From Microbacterium testaceum (GTDB lineage: Bacteria; Actinomycetota; Actinomycetes; Actinomycetales; Microbacteriaceae): a stretch of 64,000 bases of DNA. The stretch spans positions 1-64,000 of the forward strand of contig NZ_LDRT01000021.1 in the NCBI RefSeq assembly GCF_001476655.1, read 5' to 3'. The position numbers and the translations under genes were made by a program. Shown here piece by piece: positions 6,903 through 14,973 of the stretch; positions within the stretch are counted from its first letter, which is position 1, and every line of letters starts with the position of its first letter. A model generated the notes under the pieces. It did no database searches. It was not told where the DNA came from and saw nothing but the letters and a program-made list of their open reading frames with translations.

Positions 6903-7751
6903 GTGATCCGACTCGACCAGGCTTCTCCCCCGCTGTTCCGTGGCGATGGGACCGTGCAGTTCGGCGCGCCCGCCCGAGCTCTCCTCGATTCCTCGCCGCC
7001 GTGGGTGGAGGCGGCCGTCGGAGCCCTCGAGGCCGGAACGACCCGTAGCGAGCTCCGGGCGCTCGCCCGCCTGCACCGCGCGAAGGACACGGACGCCGAT
7101 GCCCTGCTGCGGGAACTCGCTCCCGTCCTCCGACGACCGCGGCGACAGGTCACCTTCGTCGTGCAGACAGCGGATGACCTCCCCTCATCGGCGGTGCGTG
7201 CGGTCCTCGCCGCGTTGCCGGCGCGCACCGAGGTCGTCGCGTGGGCCGGAACCCACTCCGCGCCCGTGGCATCCGATCGCCGGGTGGTCCTGCTCGCCGC
7301 GCACCGCGTCGATCCTCGTCGCGCGTCCGCTCTCCTCCGCGAGGACATCGTGCATCTGCCCCTCGTCCTCGGCGGCGCGAGCGCGAGAATCGGACCGGTG
7401 GTGCATCCGGGCCGCACCGCGTGCTTGTCCTGCCTGGATGCCACGGCTCGACGTCACGACGACGCGTGGCCGCTGCTCGCGGCTCAGCTGCTCGCGCGCC
7501 CGTGCGCGACGGTCGACGTGGCGCTGGCCGCTGAGGCGGGTCGCGCCGCACGGCACCTGCTCACCGCGCGACCCGGGATCCCGTCCCGTTCCCTGCGCCT
7601 GCACGCCGACTCGATCCGGCGTGTCTGGGAAGACCATCACCCGAGCGCAGACTGCCGCTGCCGATCTCTCGAAGGAAGCGCGACGGCTCACGATCCGCGC
7701 GGCCGCGTCCTCGAGCCCAGCTCACCGACAGCGAGCGCGCGGCCCTCGTGA
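6903..7751 (+). CDS. Cyclodehydratase-like / TOMM leader-binding-like protein with zinc-type cysteines
   Basis: A 282-residue protein of the family found upstream of uvrD2 in actinobacteria (Rv3196 type), annotated variously as cyclodehydratase or TOMM precursor-binding. The recognisable part is HPGRTACLSCLDATARRHDD followed by a C-terminal DCRC. The four cysteines (CxxC plus CxC) probably bind zinc, as in YcaO-partner and ThiF-like proteins. No YcaO, dehydrogenase or precursor-peptide gene lies nearby, so a role in thiazole/oxazole peptides is not supported here. The GTG at 6903 sits 6 bp after GATCAT (6891-6896), a weak leaderless arrangement. Its last 191 bases overlap uvrD2 on the other strand, and the CxC codons lie inside the overlap. 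Confidence 0.75.
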   Translation: MIRLDQASPPLFRGDGTVQFGAPARALLDSSPPWVEAAVGALEAGTTRSELRALARLHRAKDTDADALLRELAPVLRRPRRQVTFVVQTADDLPSSAVRAVLAALPARTEVVAWAGTHSAPVASDRRVVLLAAHRVDPRRASALLREDIVHLPLVLGGASARIGPVVHPGRTACLSCLDATARRHDDAWPLLAAQLLARPCATVDVALAAEAGRAARHLLTARPGIPSRSLRLHADSIRRVWEDHHPSADCRCRSLEGSATAHDPRGRVLEPSSPTASARPS

Positions 7752-9315
7752 CGCCCACGTACGCGAGCCGACGCTCCTCGTCCATCGCCTCGAAGGTGGT
7801 CGCGTACGAGATCGGGAGAAGACCCTCGCTCACGCCGATGAGGAAGACGTGATCCCACTCCAGTCCTTTTGCCGCGTGGAGGGTCGAGAGGGTGACGGTG
7901 CGGGTGGCGGGCTCGTGCTGGTCCCGCGCTCGCGCCTGGAGGTCGTCGGTGAAGGACCGCAGATCCGTTCCGGGCGCAGCCTCCTCGGCGAGCCGGAGAA
8001 GGGCCGCCCGAGCCTCCCAGCCGTCCCGGAGAGCCCCTCCGGCTTGCGGCGGTTCGTCCGTCAACCCGACTCCCCTCAGCACGTCGCGGACGGTGGCGAG
8101 AAAACCGGTCTCGACGGGCGCGACCGACGCCGCCCGCAGCGCCATCAGCGCCTGGCGCACCTCGGGAAGGTCGAAGAACTTCCGCCCGCCGAGCACCGTC
8201 GCGGCGATCCCCTGCGCAGCCAGAGCGTTCAAGACGACCGCGGATTGGGCGTGCGAGCGGTACAGGATCGCGATGCTCTCGGGGTCGGCGCCCTCCGCGA
8301 CCATCGCGGCGACGGACGCCGCGACGCCCGCAGCCTCCGTCTCGTCGTCGTCGTAGCCGCGGACGACGGGAACGGGGGCGTCCCCCTCGTGCGCGGCGAC
8401 GAGTTCGAGAGCGCCGGCGCGCCCGCGCATGAGGTCATTGGCGACGGCGAGCACGGCGCCCGTCGAGCGGTAGTTGCGTTCGAGGCGCACCACCCGGGCA
8501 TCTTCGTGTGTGCGCTCGAACTCGAGCAGATATCGCGCGTCGGCACCGGTGAACGAGTAGATGGTCTGGCTCGCGTCCCCCACCACGCAGAGGTCGCGTC
8601 GATCGCCCAACCACAGTTCCAGCAGCCGGTTCTGCAGCGGCGAGACGTCCTGGTACTCGTCCACGGTGAAGTGCCGGTACTGCTCGTGCACGGCCGCCGC
8701 CACCCGCGGTTCCGCCTCGATCATCCCCGCACAGGTGAGGAGCACGTCCTCGAAGTCCATCTGCCGCCGCTCGTCCTTGAGCTTCTCGTACGACCGCTGG
8801 AGATCGACGACCTGATCCACCCGCAGACGACCGACGCCCTCCGGTCGCGCGATGGCGTACTGCTCGATCGAGCGCATGGTCACCTTGCGCCACTCGATCT
8901 GCGACGCGACGTCACGCAGCGTGGCGGTGTCCGGGGAGAGCCCGATGCCGTCGGCCGCGTGCGCGAGCATGCGCACCTTGTTGTCGATGATCGACGGCGC
9001 CTGGTCGGCCGCCAACGTCGGCCAGAAGTAGTTCACCTGGGCGAGAGCCGCCGCGTGGAAGGTGCGGGCGGAGACGCCACTCACCCCGAGGGCGCGCAGG
9101 CGGCCTCTCATCTCACCCGCGGCCTTCGCCGTGAAGGTCACCGCCATCACGCGCTGGGGCGAGTAGGCACCCGTGTCCACCCCATGGGCGATGCGGCGCG
9201 TGATGACTCGGGTCTTTCCCGTGCCCGCCCCGGCGAGAACGCAGACCGGTCCCCGCAGCGCGCGCGCCGCTTCCAGCTGATGCTCGTCGAGTCCGTCCAA
9301 CGCACCCGAGCTCAT
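7561..9315 (-). CDS. uvrD2: UvrD2-type superfamily 1 DNA helicase
   Basis: A 584-residue 3'-5' DNA helicase. Visible motifs are Walker A AGAGTGKT (about 28-35), motif Ia TFTAKAAGEMR, motif II VDEYQD, motif III GDASQTIYSFTGA, motif IV RNYRS, motif V TLHAAKGLEWD and motif VI AYVGVTRA. Mycobacterial UvrD2 carries a C-terminal HRDC domain and a four-cysteine zinc module; here the protein stops about 50 residues after motif VI in a Gly/Arg-rich tail, so both are missing. Adjacency to nudC supports the UvrD2 assignment over UvrD1/PcrA. The ATG at 9315 overlaps the nudC stop (ATGA), implying translational coupling. The 3' end overlaps the convergent gene by 191 bp. Confidence 0.88.
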   Translation of the reverse strand: MSSGALDGLDEHQLEAARALRGPVCVLAGAGTGKTRVITRRIAHGVDTGAYSPQRVMAVTFTAKAAGEMRGRLRALGVSGVSARTFHAAALAQVNYFWPTLAADQAPSIIDNKVRMLAHAADGIGLSPDTATLRDVASQIEWRKVTMRSIEQYAIARPEGVGRLRVDQVVDLQRSYEKLKDERRQMDFEDVLLTCAGMIEAEPRVAAAVHEQYRHFTVDEYQDVSPLQNRLLELWLGDRRDLCVVGDASQTIYSFTGADARYLLEFERTHEDARVVRLERNYRSTGAVLAVANDLMRGRAGALELVAAHEGDAPVPVVRGYDDDETEAAGVAASVAAMVAEGADPESIAILYRSHAQSAVVLNALAAQGIAATVLGGRKFFDLPEVRQALMALRAASVAPVETGFLATVRDVLRGVGLTDEPPQAGGALRDGWEARAALLRLAEEAAPGTDLRSFTDDLQARARDQHEPATRTVTLSTLHAAKGLEWDHVFLIGVSEGLLPISYATTFEAMDEERRLAYVGVTRAARSLSVSWARGRGRADREPSRFLREIGSGSLRSGDGLPRHAGSSRRAGAGNGTGSRVAR

Positions 9316-10214
9316 CCGACGCCCCCGTACCAGTCGTCGATCAAGCGGCGCGCGATGGAAGACGACCCGGGAAGCTGCACCCCGTCCTCTCCGCGCAGAG
9401 CGGTGCCGATCTGCTCGCGGTCGAACCAGCGCACCTCGACGATCTCCTCACCGTCGGCGCGCACTTCGGCGTCGTCCACGACGCGCGCTCGGAAACCGAG
9501 CATCAACGAGCGCGGATACGGCCACACCTGCGAGCCGCGATACTCCACGTCCCGCACGCGCACCCCCGCCTCTTCGAAGATCTCGCGCGCGACGGCGTCC
9601 TCCAGCGACTCCCCGGCCTCCGCGAAGCCGGCGAAACATGAGTACCTGTCCCCGCCCCACGCGGCATTCGCCCCGAGCAGAACACGGTCGGGGTCCGTCG
9701 CCGAGGACAGCAGCACGATGACCGCCGGATCCGTGCGCGGGAAATGCTCACGACCGCAGCGGGGACAGTGGCGCGACCACCCCGCGTGGCGCAGCTCCGT
9801 GCGCGTACCGCACGCGGGACAGAAGGGCGCATCGCGAAGCCAGCCGGCCAGCGCCACGGCCGTGGCGAGGATCTCCGCCTCCTCCGCGGGCAGGTCCCCG
9901 CCGACGCTGCGGAGCCGCCCCCACTCGACCCCCGCGGGGAGAGCGGGCTCGTCGCTCTCTTCCAGGACCGCCAGCAGAAGACCGCGGCCGTCCATGCTCC
10001 GGCCGAGGAACGCCCACTCGTACGTTTCCTCGACCTCGGTCGCGCCGATCAGCGACAGTCGTCCGCCGTCGACGGGCGCCGCGTCACCGCGGATCAGCAG
10101 GACTCGCGTTCCGGATGCCGCGCGCTCGCGCTCGATCAGATCGTCGGTGACGCGTTCGTCACCGCGCCTGTCCAGCGCACCGCCGGGCCATCGCGTCGGA
10201 GACGGAGAAGGCAT
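9312..10214 (-). CDS. nudC: NAD(+) diphosphatase / NAD-cap hydrolase NudC
   Basis: A 300-residue Nudix hydrolase that cleaves NAD(H) and, in characterised homologues, NAD-capped RNA. It has the NudC zinc ribbon (CPAC with CPRC, 18 residues apart). The complete Nudix box runs from GFAEAGE to REIFEEAGV. Just after the box it has SQVWPYPRS, a variant of the family-specific SQPWPFPxS signature. The N-terminal domain is diverged, as usual for actinobacteria. The ATG at 10214 has AGAGG 8 bases upstream. It is the first gene of a two-gene operon with uvrD2, divergent from the phosphotransferase-like gene. Confidence 0.93.
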   Translation of the reverse strand: MPSPSPTRWPGGALDRRGDERVTDDLIERERAASGTRVLLIRGDAAPVDGGRLSLIGATEVEETYEWAFLGRSMDGRGLLLAVLEESDEPALPAGVEWGRLRSVGGDLPAEEAEILATAVALAGWLRDAPFCPACGTRTELRHAGWSRHCPRCGREHFPRTDPAVIVLLSSATDPDRVLLGANAAWGGDRYSCFAGFAEAGESLEDAVAREIFEEAGVRVRDVEYRGSQVWPYPRSLMLGFRARVVDDAEVRADGEEIVEVRWFDREQIGTALRGEDGVQLPGSSSIARRLIDDWYGGVG

Positions 10215-10266
10215 CGAACACCTCTCTCAAGGGCGTGGCGCAAGGGGAACGAGCGAGCACCCGACC

Positions 10267-10272
10267 TACCCT
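10267..10272 (+). promoter_or_regulatory. -10 element of a leaderless promoter for the phosphotransferase-like gene
   Basis: TACCCT lies 6 bp before the ATG at 10279. Confidence 0.6.
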
Positions 10273-10278
10273 GGGGGC

Positions 10279-11670
10279 ATGGCCCGCTCGCCCCTCACTC
10301 TAGCCGCGTCGGTGACGGCGGCCCTCCCGCGGATCGGTGTGACGCGCGTCGGAGCGCTCACCGAGAACGGCGCGGGTCGCTTCGATGCCGCCCTCGTCCA
10401 TCTCGACGACGGGCGTACCGCTGTCGTGCGACGGCCTTCCTCGGAAGAGTCCGCGTCCGACCTGGCCGCGGAGTCGCGCGCACTGCTCGCCCTCACACCC
10501 GGCGTCCGTGCGCTCCTCCCTTTCGCCGTTCCCGAGGTGCTCGGCGAAACCGGCTCCGGGACGGACCGCGTCCTGGTGACGACGCACCTGGAGGGGTACC
10601 GGATCGATCCGGCCCATCTGCCGAAGGGCCCCGGCTACGCGCCGGCCATCGGCGGGGCGCTCGCGGCCATTCATGCCCTGCCCGTCTCGATCGTCCGCAC
10701 CGACGGTCTTCCCGTCCGCTCGCCCGAGCAGGTTCGTGACGACACGGCCCGCCTGCTCGATCGCGCCGACGGTACGGATCGGGTGCCCGACGCTCTCATG
10801 CTCCGCTGGCGTCGCGCCCTTCGCGAAGACGAGCTGTGGCGCTTCGAATCGGCCGTCATCCTCGGCGGGGGCACGAGTTCTTCGGTCCTCCTCGACGATG
10901 ACGAGGACGACATCCCGCACGTCACCGGCGTCCTCGACTGGTCGGGCCTGAGCGTCGGCGATCCGGCGGTGGACCTGCGTTGGCTGGCATCCGCGCCGCT
11001 CGCCGCCGACGACGTCTTCGACGGCTACACCGCGGCGAGCGACCGCTCCCCCGATGCCCTTCTTCGCGAGCGCGCCCGACTGTACGCCGAGCTCGAATTC
11101 GCCCGCTGGCTGGTTCACGGGCACGACGCCGGGGACGCGTCGGTCGTCGCCGATGCCGTCGCGCTGCTCGAGGCGCTCGTCGAGGGAGTTCGCGGCGACC
11201 ACATCGTGACGGACACCCGCACCGACATCGATGACGCGCTCGCTCTCGTCGAGCAGGTGCCCCCGGCGGTCATCGGCACGGCCGATACGTCGATGCAGAC
11301 CGACGCCTACGACCCGGAGGCGCTGTCGCTCTATCTCTCCGCCGAGCGCGACCGCGAGGCGGCGGCCGCCGGGCTCGCCGCGGCCCTCGCCGACGACGAC
11401 CTCTCCGGCGCGAACGCCGATACCGGGGCGTTCGATCTGACCCCGGCCCTCAGCGAGGAACCCGGTCCGACGGCACCGATCGATCTCGACGGGTGGACCG
11501 AGAACGCTCCGCACACCGCCGGAACGCCCACCGCGGATGCCGCGACCGGCGGTGCCCCCGTCGGGTCCGGCGACACCTCCCCGGACGCGGACGAAGACGA
11601 CGAAGAAGACGCCGCGCGCGCGAGCCGTGCGGCCCTCCGCCGCTGGGGCGTGACCGGCGACGGATCCTGA
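10279..11670 (+). CDS. Aminoglycoside phosphotransferase-fold protein with a degenerate catalytic loop
   Basis: A 463-residue protein with the APH/choline-kinase fold. The metal-binding region is recognisable as GVLDW (217-221) followed by GDPAVDLRW (227-235). The catalytic loop, normally HGDxxxxN, should lie about 20 residues earlier; the aligned segment is VILGGGTSSSVLL (193-205), so the catalytic Asp, the His and the metal-binding Asn are all absent. It is therefore probably a pseudokinase or nucleotide sensor, not an antibiotic-resistance enzyme. An acidic, low-complexity C-terminal extension of about 150 residues ends in RRWGVTGDGS. The ATG at 10279 is leaderless. The open frame extends far upstream but antisense to nudC and uvrD2; that part is a shadow. 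Confidence 0.8.
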   Translation: MARSPLTLAASVTAALPRIGVTRVGALTENGAGRFDAALVHLDDGRTAVVRRPSSEESASDLAAESRALLALTPGVRALLPFAVPEVLGETGSGTDRVLVTTHLEGYRIDPAHLPKGPGYAPAIGGALAAIHALPVSIVRTDGLPVRSPEQVRDDTARLLDRADGTDRVPDALMLRWRRALREDELWRFESAVILGGGTSSSVLLDDDEDDIPHVTGVLDWSGLSVGDPAVDLRWLASAPLAADDVFDGYTAASDRSPDALLRERARLYAELEFARWLVHGHDAGDASVVADAVALLEALVEGVRGDHIVTDTRTDIDDALALVEQVPPAVIGTADTSMQTDAYDPEALSLYLSAERDREAAAAGLAAALADDDLSGANADTGAFDLTPALSEEPGPTAPIDLDGWTENAPHTAGTPTADAATGGAPVGSGDTSPDADEDDEEDAARASRAALRRWGVTGDGS

Positions 11671-11685
11671 CGGACCGACGAGGCG

Positions 11686-14600
11686 TCACCCCCGGATGAC
11701 CAGCTCGTCCCCGACGTAGAACAGCGCCACATCGATCGCGTCGAGCGGCACCCCGTGCTTGGCGTGGTACGCCTCGCGGTAGAGCTCGAGCTGCACCATC
11801 CGCGACCGCCGGTCTTCAGCGGTCACCGGGGGCTTGCCGGTCTTCCAGTCGACGATCTCGTACCGCTCCCCGCGGCGGTACACCGCGTCGAGCTTGCAGA
11901 TGACGACGTGCTCGCGCCCATCGAGCCGTTGCGTGACGAAGTCGATCTCCGTCTCCACCTCCAGGGGCTGCAGCGCCGCCCATTCGGAACGCTCGAAGCA
12001 CTCGCGGAGCCGCTGCAGCTCGGCCGCGTCGGCGGCGGAGGCCCCGAAATCGTCGTCTTCCCACAGGCCGCCATCGTCGAGTCCGACCCCCGCGCCGACG
12101 AGCCCGGAGCGCTGCTCGACCCACGCGTGGAACAGTGTGCCGAGCCGCGTCTGCCGATAGGGCCGTTCGGGCATCGGGCGCCGCACCTCGTCGACCGCCG
12201 CACGGTAGTCGGCGACGTAGTCCTTGAAGCGCGAGGCAGGGATCCGCGTGGGGGCGGGGGCATGGACGGGCTGCAGGCGCGCGGCGCGTTCGGCGAGCAG
12301 CAACGCCAAGTCGGCATCGGGTTCGACGGGCGCCGCATCCCGGGCCGCGGCCACCTCGGATGCCGCGGCGGTCACCGCGGTGCGACGGGAGCCCAAGGGG
12401 TCGAGCGGCCAGTGCAGCAGACGCCGCTCGCCGTCGTAGGGGTCCTCACCGGCTTCGCCGACGACGAGCTCGCTGCCCAGTGCCTCCGCCGCCTCGTCGA
12501 GGAACACGCTCGGCCGGCGCGGCTTCTTCGTCCCCGACCAGGTGGAACCCGAGAGCAGCAGGTGATCACGGGCGCGAGTGAAGGCGACGTAGGCCAGCCG
12601 GCGATCCTCGTCGAGCTGTCGCGCGCGGTTCGCCGCGACGAAGTCGTCGATGGCCGCCTTCAGTTCCTGCTGCGTCTCGGCGCCCCTCCAGCCGAAGGCA
12701 GGGAGCCAGGCCGCATCCCCGCGGAAGTCGGACGGAAGGATGCCGAACCCCAGCCACCCCTTCGTGTCACGCGGGAGAGAGGGAAGCTCATCCGTCACGA
12801 GCCGCACGACCGCCACGGCGTCCCACTCGAGTCCCTTCGACCCGTGGATCGTCAGGAGCTGGACCACGTCGTCCTCAGGTGGTTCGGTCCGCGGCGCGAA
12901 CTCGTCGGCCTGTTCCGCGTGGTCGAGCCACGCCAACAGGCTCGCCACCGAGCCGGACTCGTCCGCGGCGAGGAAGCCGCGGATCTCGTCGACGAAGGCC
13001 CGGAGCTGTGCCGAAGCGATCCGTGCGGGCCCGCGGGACTCGTTGGCGGCGAGCTCGATGTCGAGACGGAGCTCCGCTTCGATCAGTCGGATGAGCTCGG
13101 GGATGGGGGCGCCGATGCTCCGGCGGAGGCCCGCGAACACGGCTCCCGCCTCCCGCAGACGAGCACGTCCGGCGGGGGTGATGTCAGCGAGCCACCCGTG
13201 GTCGTCGTTCTGCCGGGCGAGGAAGTCGAGGGCGTCCACGAGCGACGCCCGGTCCGCGCCCGGCGTGGCGCGCAGCCGATCGGCGACCTCTTTCTCGAGC
13301 GGTTGCAAGGCCACGTCGTGCGTCGCAAGACGGCGGGCGAGCTGAGCGAGCGCCCGCAGGTCGGCGAGGCCGACCGCCCATCGCGGCCCCGACAAGAGCC
13401 GGATCAGCGCGGATCCCGCTTCCGGATCACTGATCACCCGCAACGCGGAGACGACGTCGACGACCTCGGGCGTGGTGAGCAGACCGCCCAGCCCGAGAAT
13501 GCGGTGCGGGATGCCACGCCGCCCCAGCGCGTCCCCGAAACGCACCATGTGCTTCTTGCTGCGGAAGAGCACGGCACCGGTCGTCGCCCGCCCGTCGGCT
13601 TGCCGCGCCGCGCGGACCCCGGCAAACCACGACGCGACCCGGTCGGCCTCGGTGTCCAGATCGCTCTCGAACACGATCTCGACGCGGCCCTCGGGCGCGC
13701 CGGGACGTGACGTGAGCTCCTTCACCGCGATCGGCGAACGGTCGGCGAGCGGTGCGAGCACGGCGTTGGCCACGTCGAGGACGCGCGCGCTGTTGCGCCA
13801 GCTGGTGAGCAGCGAGAAGTGTCGGCATCCCCCCTCCGGGGAGAACGCGGCCGGGAATCCGCCGAGGTTGCCCGCGCTCGCGCCGCGCCACGCGTAGATG
13901 GCCTGGTGCGGATCGCCCACGGCCATCACGCCGGTGCCTCCGAACAGCGTCGACAGCAGATCCGTCTGGACCACCGAGGTGTCCTGGTACTCGTCGAGCA
14001 GCACGACGCGGTAGCGTGCCCGCAGTTCGGCGACGACGGCAGGATGCTCGCGGGCGATCCGCAGGGCTCCGGCCACCTGATCGGCGAAGTCCATGACACC
14101 GAGCCGGATCTTCTCGCTGTCGTAGGCGGCGGCGAGCGTCGCCAACAGGCTGAGAGCGGAGACGCGCGCGGCGGCGTCGGCCACGTCCTTGTAGACCGTG
14201 ACCCGCGCCGATGTCGACGGGCGCTCGACGATGCGTCCGAACTCGTCGGGGAACGCGGCGAGGCGGTCGAGATCGACGAGGTTGTCGACGCCGTCACGCG
14301 CGATCCGCAGGGCCGCGTCGATGAGGGTCCGCGGGGACTCCTGCCGCTCTTCGAGCCGCGGGTCGTCCGAGGTGAAGACCACGCGCCGCATGAGCAACCA
14401 CGCCGCGGACTCGGAGAGGATCGCCGACTCGGCGTCGCGCCCGATGCGCAGCCCGTGCTCTCTCACGAGGGAGTCGGCGAAGCTGTTGTACGTCGAGACG
14501 GTCGGGCGGTGCAGAAGCTGATCGCCGTCGTCCTCCCCCGTACCGAGCGTCGCGTACTCGTCGGCGAGGGCGTCGAGGACCGCACGTCGCGCTGCGTCCC

Positions 14601-14973
14601 CGCGCGCTCCCTGCTGCGCGCCGAGCTCGGCGAAGACGGCCAGCCTGCCCGAGCGGTGCAGTTCGGGGAGCACCGGCAGCAGGCCGCGGGTCTCGAACTC
14701 GGACAGCCGCTGGAGGCGCCGCTGCACGCGCTCGGCCAGCTCACCCGCCGCCTTCCGCGTGAAGGTCAGACCGAGCACCTCGTCGCGACGGACGATCCCG
14801 TTGGCGACGAGCCATACGACGCGGCCCGCCATCGTCTCCGTCTTGCCGCTCCCGGCACCGGCGACGACGAGTGCCGGGGCGAGGGGGGACTCGATGACGG
14901 CGGTCTGCTCCGGCGTGGGCGGGAACTGGCCGAGGGCGGCGGCGATCGTCGCCGCGGACAGCGTCGCGGTCAT
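11686..14973 (-). CDS. adnB: AdnB-type helicase-nuclease subunit
   Basis: A 1095-residue protein with an N-terminal UvrD-like motor and a C-terminal RecB-like nuclease, matching AdnB in length and order. Motor motifs are GAGSGKTETM (39-48), LLDEYQDTS, GDPHQAIYAWRGAS, TIHGSKGLEWD and AYVAFTRARDHLL. Nuclease residues are CKLDAVY, IVDWKTGK (about 1038) and the QLELY helix. With AdnA it resects double-strand breaks for recombinational repair, the actinobacterial counterpart of RecBCD/AddAB. All motor motifs are intact, consistent with AdnB as the leading ATP-driven subunit. The ATG at 14973 overlaps the adnA stop (ATGA). Confidence 0.92.
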   Translation of the reverse strand: MTATLSAATIAAALGQFPPTPEQTAVIESPLAPALVVAGAGSGKTETMAGRVVWLVANGIVRRDEVLGLTFTRKAAGELAERVQRRLQRLSEFETRGLLPVLPELHRSGRLAVFAELGAQQGARGDAARRAVLDALADEYATLGTGEDDGDQLLHRPTVSTYNSFADSLVREHGLRIGRDAESAILSESAAWLLMRRVVFTSDDPRLEERQESPRTLIDAALRIARDGVDNLVDLDRLAAFPDEFGRIVERPSTSARVTVYKDVADAAARVSALSLLATLAAAYDSEKIRLGVMDFADQVAGALRIAREHPAVVAELRARYRVVLLDEYQDTSVVQTDLLSTLFGGTGVMAVGDPHQAIYAWRGASAGNLGGFPAAFSPEGGCRHFSLLTSWRNSARVLDVANAVLAPLADRSPIAVKELTSRPGAPEGRVEIVFESDLDTEADRVASWFAGVRAARQADGRATTGAVLFRSKKHMVRFGDALGRRGIPHRILGLGGLLTTPEVVDVVSALRVISDPEAGSALIRLLSGPRWAVGLADLRALAQLARRLATHDVALQPLEKEVADRLRATPGADRASLVDALDFLARQNDDHGWLADITPAGRARLREAGAVFAGLRRSIGAPIPELIRLIEAELRLDIELAANESRGPARIASAQLRAFVDEIRGFLAADESGSVASLLAWLDHAEQADEFAPRTEPPEDDVVQLLTIHGSKGLEWDAVAVVRLVTDELPSLPRDTKGWLGFGILPSDFRGDAAWLPAFGWRGAETQQELKAAIDDFVAANRARQLDEDRRLAYVAFTRARDHLLLSGSTWSGTKKPRRPSVFLDEAAEALGSELVVGEAGEDPYDGERRLLHWPLDPLGSRRTAVTAAASEVAAARDAAPVEPDADLALLLAERAARLQPVHAPAPTRIPASRFKDYVADYRAAVDEVRRPMPERPYRQTRLGTLFHAWVEQRSGLVGAGVGLDDGGLWEDDDFGASAADAAELQRLRECFERSEWAALQPLEVETEIDFVTQRLDGREHVVICKLDAVYRRGERYEIVDWKTGKPPVTAEDRRSRMVQLELYREAYHAKHGVPLDAIDVALFYVGDELVIRG

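Follow-up and report, generated by a model that had tools for sequence, protein, structure and literature searches.

The 191-bp convergent overlap between a ThiF-like gene and uvrD2 in Microbacterium testaceum is probably an old overlap of the Microbacteriaceae, in which the tip of an antisense-encoded tail became a selected C-terminal peptide in Microbacterium. The locus was analyzed in a window of 64,000 nucleotides and compared with genomes of the genus, of other genera of the family, and of other families. The stop codon of the plus-strand gene and the residues preceding it are spelled by the strand opposite a catalytic motif of the helicase, and the synonymous codons of that motif are biased accordingly.

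Geometry, gene products, and conservation of the overlap

The plus-strand gene (6903–7751) encodes, from a GTG start, a stand-alone ThiF/E1-like protein of 282 amino acids with two cysteine pairs, CLSC (7422–7433) and DCRC (7650–7661). The minus-strand gene (7561–9315) encodes, from an ATG start, a UvrD2-like SF1 helicase of 584 amino acids, for which Pfam identified the N- and C-terminal UvrD/REP helicase domains, PF00580 (8.3e-53) and PF13361 (1.6e-38). The ORF coordinates confirmed the 191-bp tail-to-tail overlap described in an earlier note, which occupies 7561–7751 on both strands in phase 123:132 (overlap length mod 3 = 2), with codon position 1 facing position 1 and position 2 facing position 3. 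The same note had placed motif VI of UvrD2 over a zinc-cysteine gene. Both DCRC and motif VI residues do lie within the overlap, but DCRC is opposite GSGSL, directly after SRFLREI (SRFLREIGSGSLR, 7645–7683) and ∼80 nt from VGVTRA, and motif VI instead faces the last residues of the plus protein and its stop codon. UvrD2 residues 520–528 (VGVTRAARS, motif VI and the residues that follow; 7732–7758, minus strand) are found opposite the plus C-terminal tip SARPS and stop (7734–7751, plus strand), with the TGA (7749–7751) spanning the V-T codons, whereas REIGSGSLR (7645–7671, minus strand) is opposite HxxxxDCRC. The remainder comprises the middle of the plus tail (7662–7733, plus strand) and the distal UvrD2 tail with its stop (7561–7644, minus strand; TGA 7561–7563).

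Three further features of the neighborhood were observed. A minus-strand NAD(+) diphosphatase-like gene (9312–10214) overlaps the start of uvrD2 (9315) by 4 nt (9312–9315), which suggests an operon with translational coupling. A plus-strand ORF of 1576 amino acids (6940–11670) runs antisense across uvrD2 and this NUDIX gene and is probably an example of the very long spurious frames found in high-GC DNA, although its last part resembles a separate gene. Close to uvrD2, a larger minus-strand frame (13198–14883, 1217 amino acids open) is similar to UvrD2, in a setting that presumably resembles the mycobacterial adnAB region.

The plus protein scored 26 bits against TIGR03882, below the curated cut-off of 36.9, and a profile of 62 orthologues matched LynD (5e-6) and TruD (8.2e-6). 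A Foldseek search with the model predicted for the orthologue from M. oleivorans returned LynD and TruD as the closest structures, followed by McbBCD and MccB. From the profile match and this modeled fold, the plus protein is classed as related to the ThiF-like C-domain found in azoline heterocyclases, but standing alone. Three YcaO matches were found elsewhere in the genome, on contigs C236 and C23, with none on the window's contig (C124), and these proteins are possible partners of the stand-alone ThiF-like protein. AlphaFold2 predicted the plus protein to be folded up to the CxC, with pLDDT below 50 at residues 257–282 of the window protein and 265–280 of the M. oleivorans orthologue.

A uvrD2 gene was present in 147 of 149 Microbacterium genomes (E 1e-120), and the junction was read in 130 of the 147, the other 17 being left out. 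The overlap reached at least 90 bp in 128 of these (range, 101–248 bp), with a gap in the other two (G026 and G165). In the other Microbacteriaceae genera, where the neighboring stop was resolved within the stretch examined in all but 1 of 63 genomes, 47 of 62 overlap by 92–218 bp, 8 by 4–83 bp, and 7 not at all. None of the 25 resolved genomes from other families (11 of 36 lacking a resolved stop) reached 90 bp; 4 have shorter overlaps, 8 have the genes tail to tail within 100 nt, and in 13 they are further apart. All 175 long overlaps share the one phase, and the conservation among Microbacteriaceae homologues by which the earlier note had proposed to judge the overlap was therefore found. 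Seven loci from other families (L212, L213, L215, L224, L228, L234, and L241) carry uvrD2 and the ThiF-like gene convergently, 0.8–1.1 kb apart.

On the family tree, the long overlap requires about 13 changes, indicating that it was gained or lost repeatedly inside the family. A set of 80 named loci agreed with the overlap in 76 cases; L293, L304, and L313 are without it, L313 apparently being the G165 genome. The absence of the overlap from G026, G165, L293, and L304 shows that neither it nor the tip is indispensable. One metagenome-assembled genome (L246), with a UvrD2 96% identical to that of the window, was read with a frameshift inside SRFLRE that is probably due to misassembly.

Constraint within the overlap

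Four-fold synonymous variation was measured in the 128 overlapping Microbacterium genomes, the two non-overlapping genomes being excluded from the codon analyses. Variation at UvrD2 wobble positions opposite the whole plus tail was not significantly lower than upstream (0.47 versus 0.52, p 0.50). The overall drop in plus wobble variation within the overlap (0.25 versus 0.56, p 5e-14) was rejected as a sign of selection on the plus tail, as it stems mainly from wobble bases that face UvrD2 second positions, where variation in the plus tail was 0.15. Opposite the UvrD2 tail, plus wobble variation was 0.42 versus 0.56 (p 0.012), with the reduction found mostly beside the CxC.

Expected values were derived from a null model, used in place of independent codon sampling, in which one protein is held fixed and its codons are redrawn given the next base; the model was calibrated outside the overlap, where in-phase antisense stops numbered 721 seen and 724 expected, and 390 seen and 381 expected. 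Across the 128 genomes the plus stop fell short of motif VI in 9 cases, at it in 119, and past it in 0, as compared with 30.8, 73.7, and 23.4 expected. The UvrD2 tail after SRFLxE measured 0–18, 19–38, 39–54, or more than 54 residues in 0, 125, 3, and 0 genomes, as compared with 11.7, 53.6, 12.5, and 50.1 expected. Both stop positions are far narrower than the model allows, and these counts, in genomes that are related to one another, show statistically that both stops are kept by selection.

Two short stretches look to be constrained on both strands. In the first, HxxCxC of the plus protein faces REIG(S/T)G(S/T)LR of UvrD2; of this UvrD2 sequence, G(S/T)G(S/T)LR is kept, with its Leu found in 116 of 128 genomes versus 12 expected. 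The second consists of [F/Y]-A-R-P-A-stop opposite motif VI. Past the next residue or two after the first stretch, UvrD2 departs little from the neutral model; its distal tail, the position of the stop apart, looks neutral, as does most of the disordered tail of the plus protein. The claim that both gene ends carry constrained residues in the overlap consequently holds for these two stretches, most of the 191 bp apparently being constrained on one strand only.

At the plus tip, the residues seen in the 128 genomes exceeded null expectation at each of the five positions before the stop: Ala at −1 (89 versus 49%), Pro at −2 (64 versus 23%), Arg at −3 (80 versus 50%), Ala at −4 (90 versus 43%), and Phe at −5 (45 versus 7%). 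The endings FARPA or YARPA were found in 57 of 128 genomes, the tip in the window being SARPS. In an alignment of 62 plus proteins with a mean column identity of 40%, both tip alanines fall in columns at least 90% conserved. Neutrality of the whole plus tail, first considered on account of the unchanged UvrD2 wobble variation opposite it, was dropped for the tip after the per-residue model and the column controls. A neutral overlap, in which both tails are read-through passengers of the UvrD2 tail loss and only long run-ons are avoided, is in keeping with the fit of the neutral codon model to the bulk of the plus tail and to the distal part of the UvrD2 tail, with the repeated changes of the overlap on the family tree, and with the relatives that have none. 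We nevertheless hold it to be doubtful, given that the Microbacterium tip residues and codons deviate strongly from both the calibrated model and the control columns and that early plus stops are depleted (9 seen versus 31 expected).

The plus TGA is formed, on the opposite strand, by positions 2 and 3 of the V/I codon of motif VI and the A of the following Thr codon, and it lies exactly there in 119 of 128 Microbacterium genomes. The wobble base of this V/I codon is C in 127 of 128; where the residue is Val, GTC is used in 51 of 52, as against 43 and 53% in the other two V-T columns of uvrD2, and the base changed once on the tree as compared with 15–38 times in 14 control Val columns. When all groups were compared, 173 of the 175 long-overlap genomes and 41 of the 54 others had C (Fisher p 1.5e-7), the latter class including the eight family genomes with overlaps of 4–83 bp. 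A mutation-path artefact (ATC to GTC) was rejected, as nine other mixed V/I columns have 31–84% GTC and the motif VI column 98%.

The codons of motif VI that face the tip residues are similarly biased. Thr413 is encoded by ACG in 91% of cases versus 48–58% in five control columns, with 11 wobble changes versus 35–45. Ala416 has 9 wobble changes versus 25–53 in 25 control Ala columns (the controls, unlike Ala416, being restricted to Ala codons), and Ala415 has 22. At the two Arg columns, 414 and 417, the counts are 31 and 34, within the control range of 21–62, and here the base make-up alone is shifted, with CGA reaching 50% in column 417 versus at most 23% in 16 controls. The Arg codon opposite the Phe or Tyr is CGA or CGT in 79 of the 106 CGN codons before Thr, as compared with 8% elsewhere before A. 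It is through these choices (ACG, GCG, and the rare CGA or CGT) that the opposite strand reads FARPA or YARPA. The ACG pattern count matched 122 of the 128 overlapping genomes, the other six being missed by the pattern. Among the named loci, 76 of 80 entered the codon count, L246, L293, L304, and L313 being read separately, and the same codon pattern was found in 75 loci with the overlap. Reading by hand of G026, G165, L293, and L304, which belong to the genus or are near it and have no overlap, found neither FARPA nor YARPA. In the other overlapping genera, ACG is used for the motif VI Thr in 24 of 47 genomes, a share like that of the control columns, which makes the tip signal a feature of Microbacterium.

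The main rival to selection on the peptide is that the codon bias of motif VI reflects a DNA or RNA signal, such as a binding site, a pause or termination signal, or a stop context. The biased bases do cluster within ∼20 nt of the plus stop, and stop context may favor the last codon. However, no excess of RNA folding was found (mean z −0.40 on the uvrD2 strand and 0.09 on the plus strand), a simple scan gave no terminator-like site in the overlap, and at the −4 Ala either GCG or GGG in UvrD2 preserves the plus-strand Ala. Moreover, Phe and Tyr, which differ in their bases, interchange 11 times among 80 aromatic tips, which favors selection on the residue, and we judge a nucleotide-level signal to be improbable. 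A hairpin in the RNA at the plus stop, or an intrinsic terminator there, was rejected as a separate candidate, folding showing no excess and the only terminator-like matches between 6700 and 9500 being at 8957–8976, inside uvrD2.

In Microbacterium, the plus tip residues look to be under selection at the level of the amino acids. With its low predicted order, the plus tail has the appearance of a flexible linker that ends in a short tip under selection, an arrangement typical of docking or stability motifs, and the tip may function as a short C-terminal linear motif in partner docking or protein stability.

Two other explanations are less probable still. The overlap might be kept because the 3′-overlapping transcripts regulate each other, the point in its favor being geometric, in that neither gene can end transcription past its stop without entering the other; relatives without the overlap exist, however, and the codon signals at the stop and tip can be explained without coupled transcripts, so that antisense coupling is quite unlikely. 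An artefact of annotation, sequencing, or assembly has practically no probability: long overlaps are generally mostly misannotations (PMC2478687) and one metagenome-assembled genome is frameshifted here, but phase and geometry recur unchanged in 128 of the 130 Microbacterium genomes read and 76 of 80 named loci, over many assemblies, which excludes the sequencing or assembly error that the earlier note had named as a possible refutation.

Loss of the UvrD2 tail and a proposed origin

An HRDC domain was matched by Pfam neither in the window UvrD2 nor in any of 63 UvrD2s from other Microbacteriaceae genera, and it was matched in 34 of 36 UvrD2 C-terminal halves from other families, which bears out the earlier remark that this UvrD2 lacks HRDC and provides the intact homologues. 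Two other proteins of the same genome retain HRDC. The UvrD2 tails of the genus extend 53–89 amino acids after RRL, and both gene ends differ outside the family. In the UvrD2 tree (a FastTree protein tree with parsimony counts, tails being labeled by length and cysteine count rather than by Pfam), the other families form one group, and the tail state needs two changes, one for the family and one for a single genus of another family (f6). No conclusion depends on the root, as the midpoint root was disturbed by the very long branch of L244 (G180). In that f6 genus (g119), L225 (G321) and L240 (G386) have UvrD2 tails of 78 and 46 amino acids after RRL, apparently a separate loss of the HRDC tail. 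The literature searched yielded no paper on a tetracysteine tail in connection with UvrD2.

The earlier note had further suggested that deletion of the HRDC and four-cysteine tail brought the two genes together. Tail loss does go with the overlap; it is a property of the whole family as sampled, not of this genome alone, and in 8 of 25 resolved genomes from other families the two convergent genes already end within 100 nt of each other, not overlapping, with UvrD2 still long-tailed. This arrangement suggests that adjacency came first and that tail loss then pushed the end of the neighbor onto motif VI.

In the proposed sequence of events, uvrD2 would have lost its HRDC tail, possibly with the four-cysteine part, in or before the family ancestor, beside a tail-to-tail ThiF-like gene. 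Each frame would then have extended into the conserved end of the other until the first in-phase stop, which for the plus gene was built into motif VI, where a C-ending V/I codon and the A that opens the next codon, Thr, give TGA on the opposite strand. Most of the extra plus tail would have become an unconstrained disordered linker, with the last residues, [F/Y]-A-R-P-A-COOH, dictating the synonymous codons of motif VI. The pattern comes from comparison, and we infer the order of events from it. On balance, we lean slightly towards the stronger proposal that [F/Y]-A-R-P-A-COOH is a functional motif born de novo antisense to motif VI after domain loss let the neighbor run in, so that in Microbacterium ∼20 nt would encode the catalytic helicase motif in one direction and the selected tip and stop in the other, the helicase paying with rare Arg codons.

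These results suggest that domain loss may hand a neighboring gene raw coding sequence, part of which later becomes useful, and, in these bacteria, the "synonymous" positions within a helicase motif cannot be regarded as silent. Long bacterial overlaps are usually dismissed as annotation errors. The present one has persisted across a genus and a large part of its family. Its wide conservation, the natural controls offered by relatives without the overlap, and the clear codon signals make the evolution of overlapping coding directly testable here.

Comparison with known systems

The plus protein shares its predicted fold and a profile match with the azoline heterocyclase C-domain and TOMM leader-binding proteins (TIGR03882; LynD, TruD, and McbB). 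It differs from them in being stand-alone, below the TIGR03882 cut-off, with YcaO genes on other contigs, and in bearing an extra antisense-encoded tail. Similarly, the helicase shares the SF1 UvrD/Rep core and motif VI with the mycobacterial-type UvrD2, an HRDC helicase, from which it and the 63 other family members differ in the HRDC domain. In two papers, which cite others for it, the HRDC domain of mycobacterial UvrD2 is reported to be unneeded for enzymatic activity and nonessential (PMC2734928, PMC8092298).

The overprinted antisense genes laoB, asa, and pop of E. coli O157:H7 are likewise reported to be coding sequence born antisense to an older gene; in contrast to them, an old gene gained a tail here rather than a new ORF being formed, and the resulting arrangement has been kept genus-wide.

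Convergent gene overlaps conserved in phase 123:132 were reportedly described by Rogozin et al. in 2002, as cited in PMC2478687. Such overlaps are tail to tail, place codon position 2 opposite the degenerate position 3, and are kept between species, as is also the case here, where the coding overlap exceeds 15 nt and is conserved in at least two genomes. This phase is the commonest, accounting for 49% of 1218 convergent overlaps of at least 5 nt (PMC2174442). Palleja et al. (2008) considered 54 of 178 convergent overlaps longer than 60 bp as possibly real, most of them conserved in very close species only (PMC2478687); by their test of agreement with orthologues, gene lengths at this locus agree within the genus, with ends predicted from sequence. 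Unlike the usual convergent overlaps, the one described here is long and keeps a single phase in almost every Microbacterium genome read and in 47 of 62 other family genomes, and the stop and last residues of one gene are spelled by the catalytic motif of the other. The literature searched, including that on convergent or antisense overlaps in Microbacterium, held no precedent for such breadth and dual use of motif VI. The locus is one of a known kind, the conserved convergent overlaps, among which these two features set it apart.
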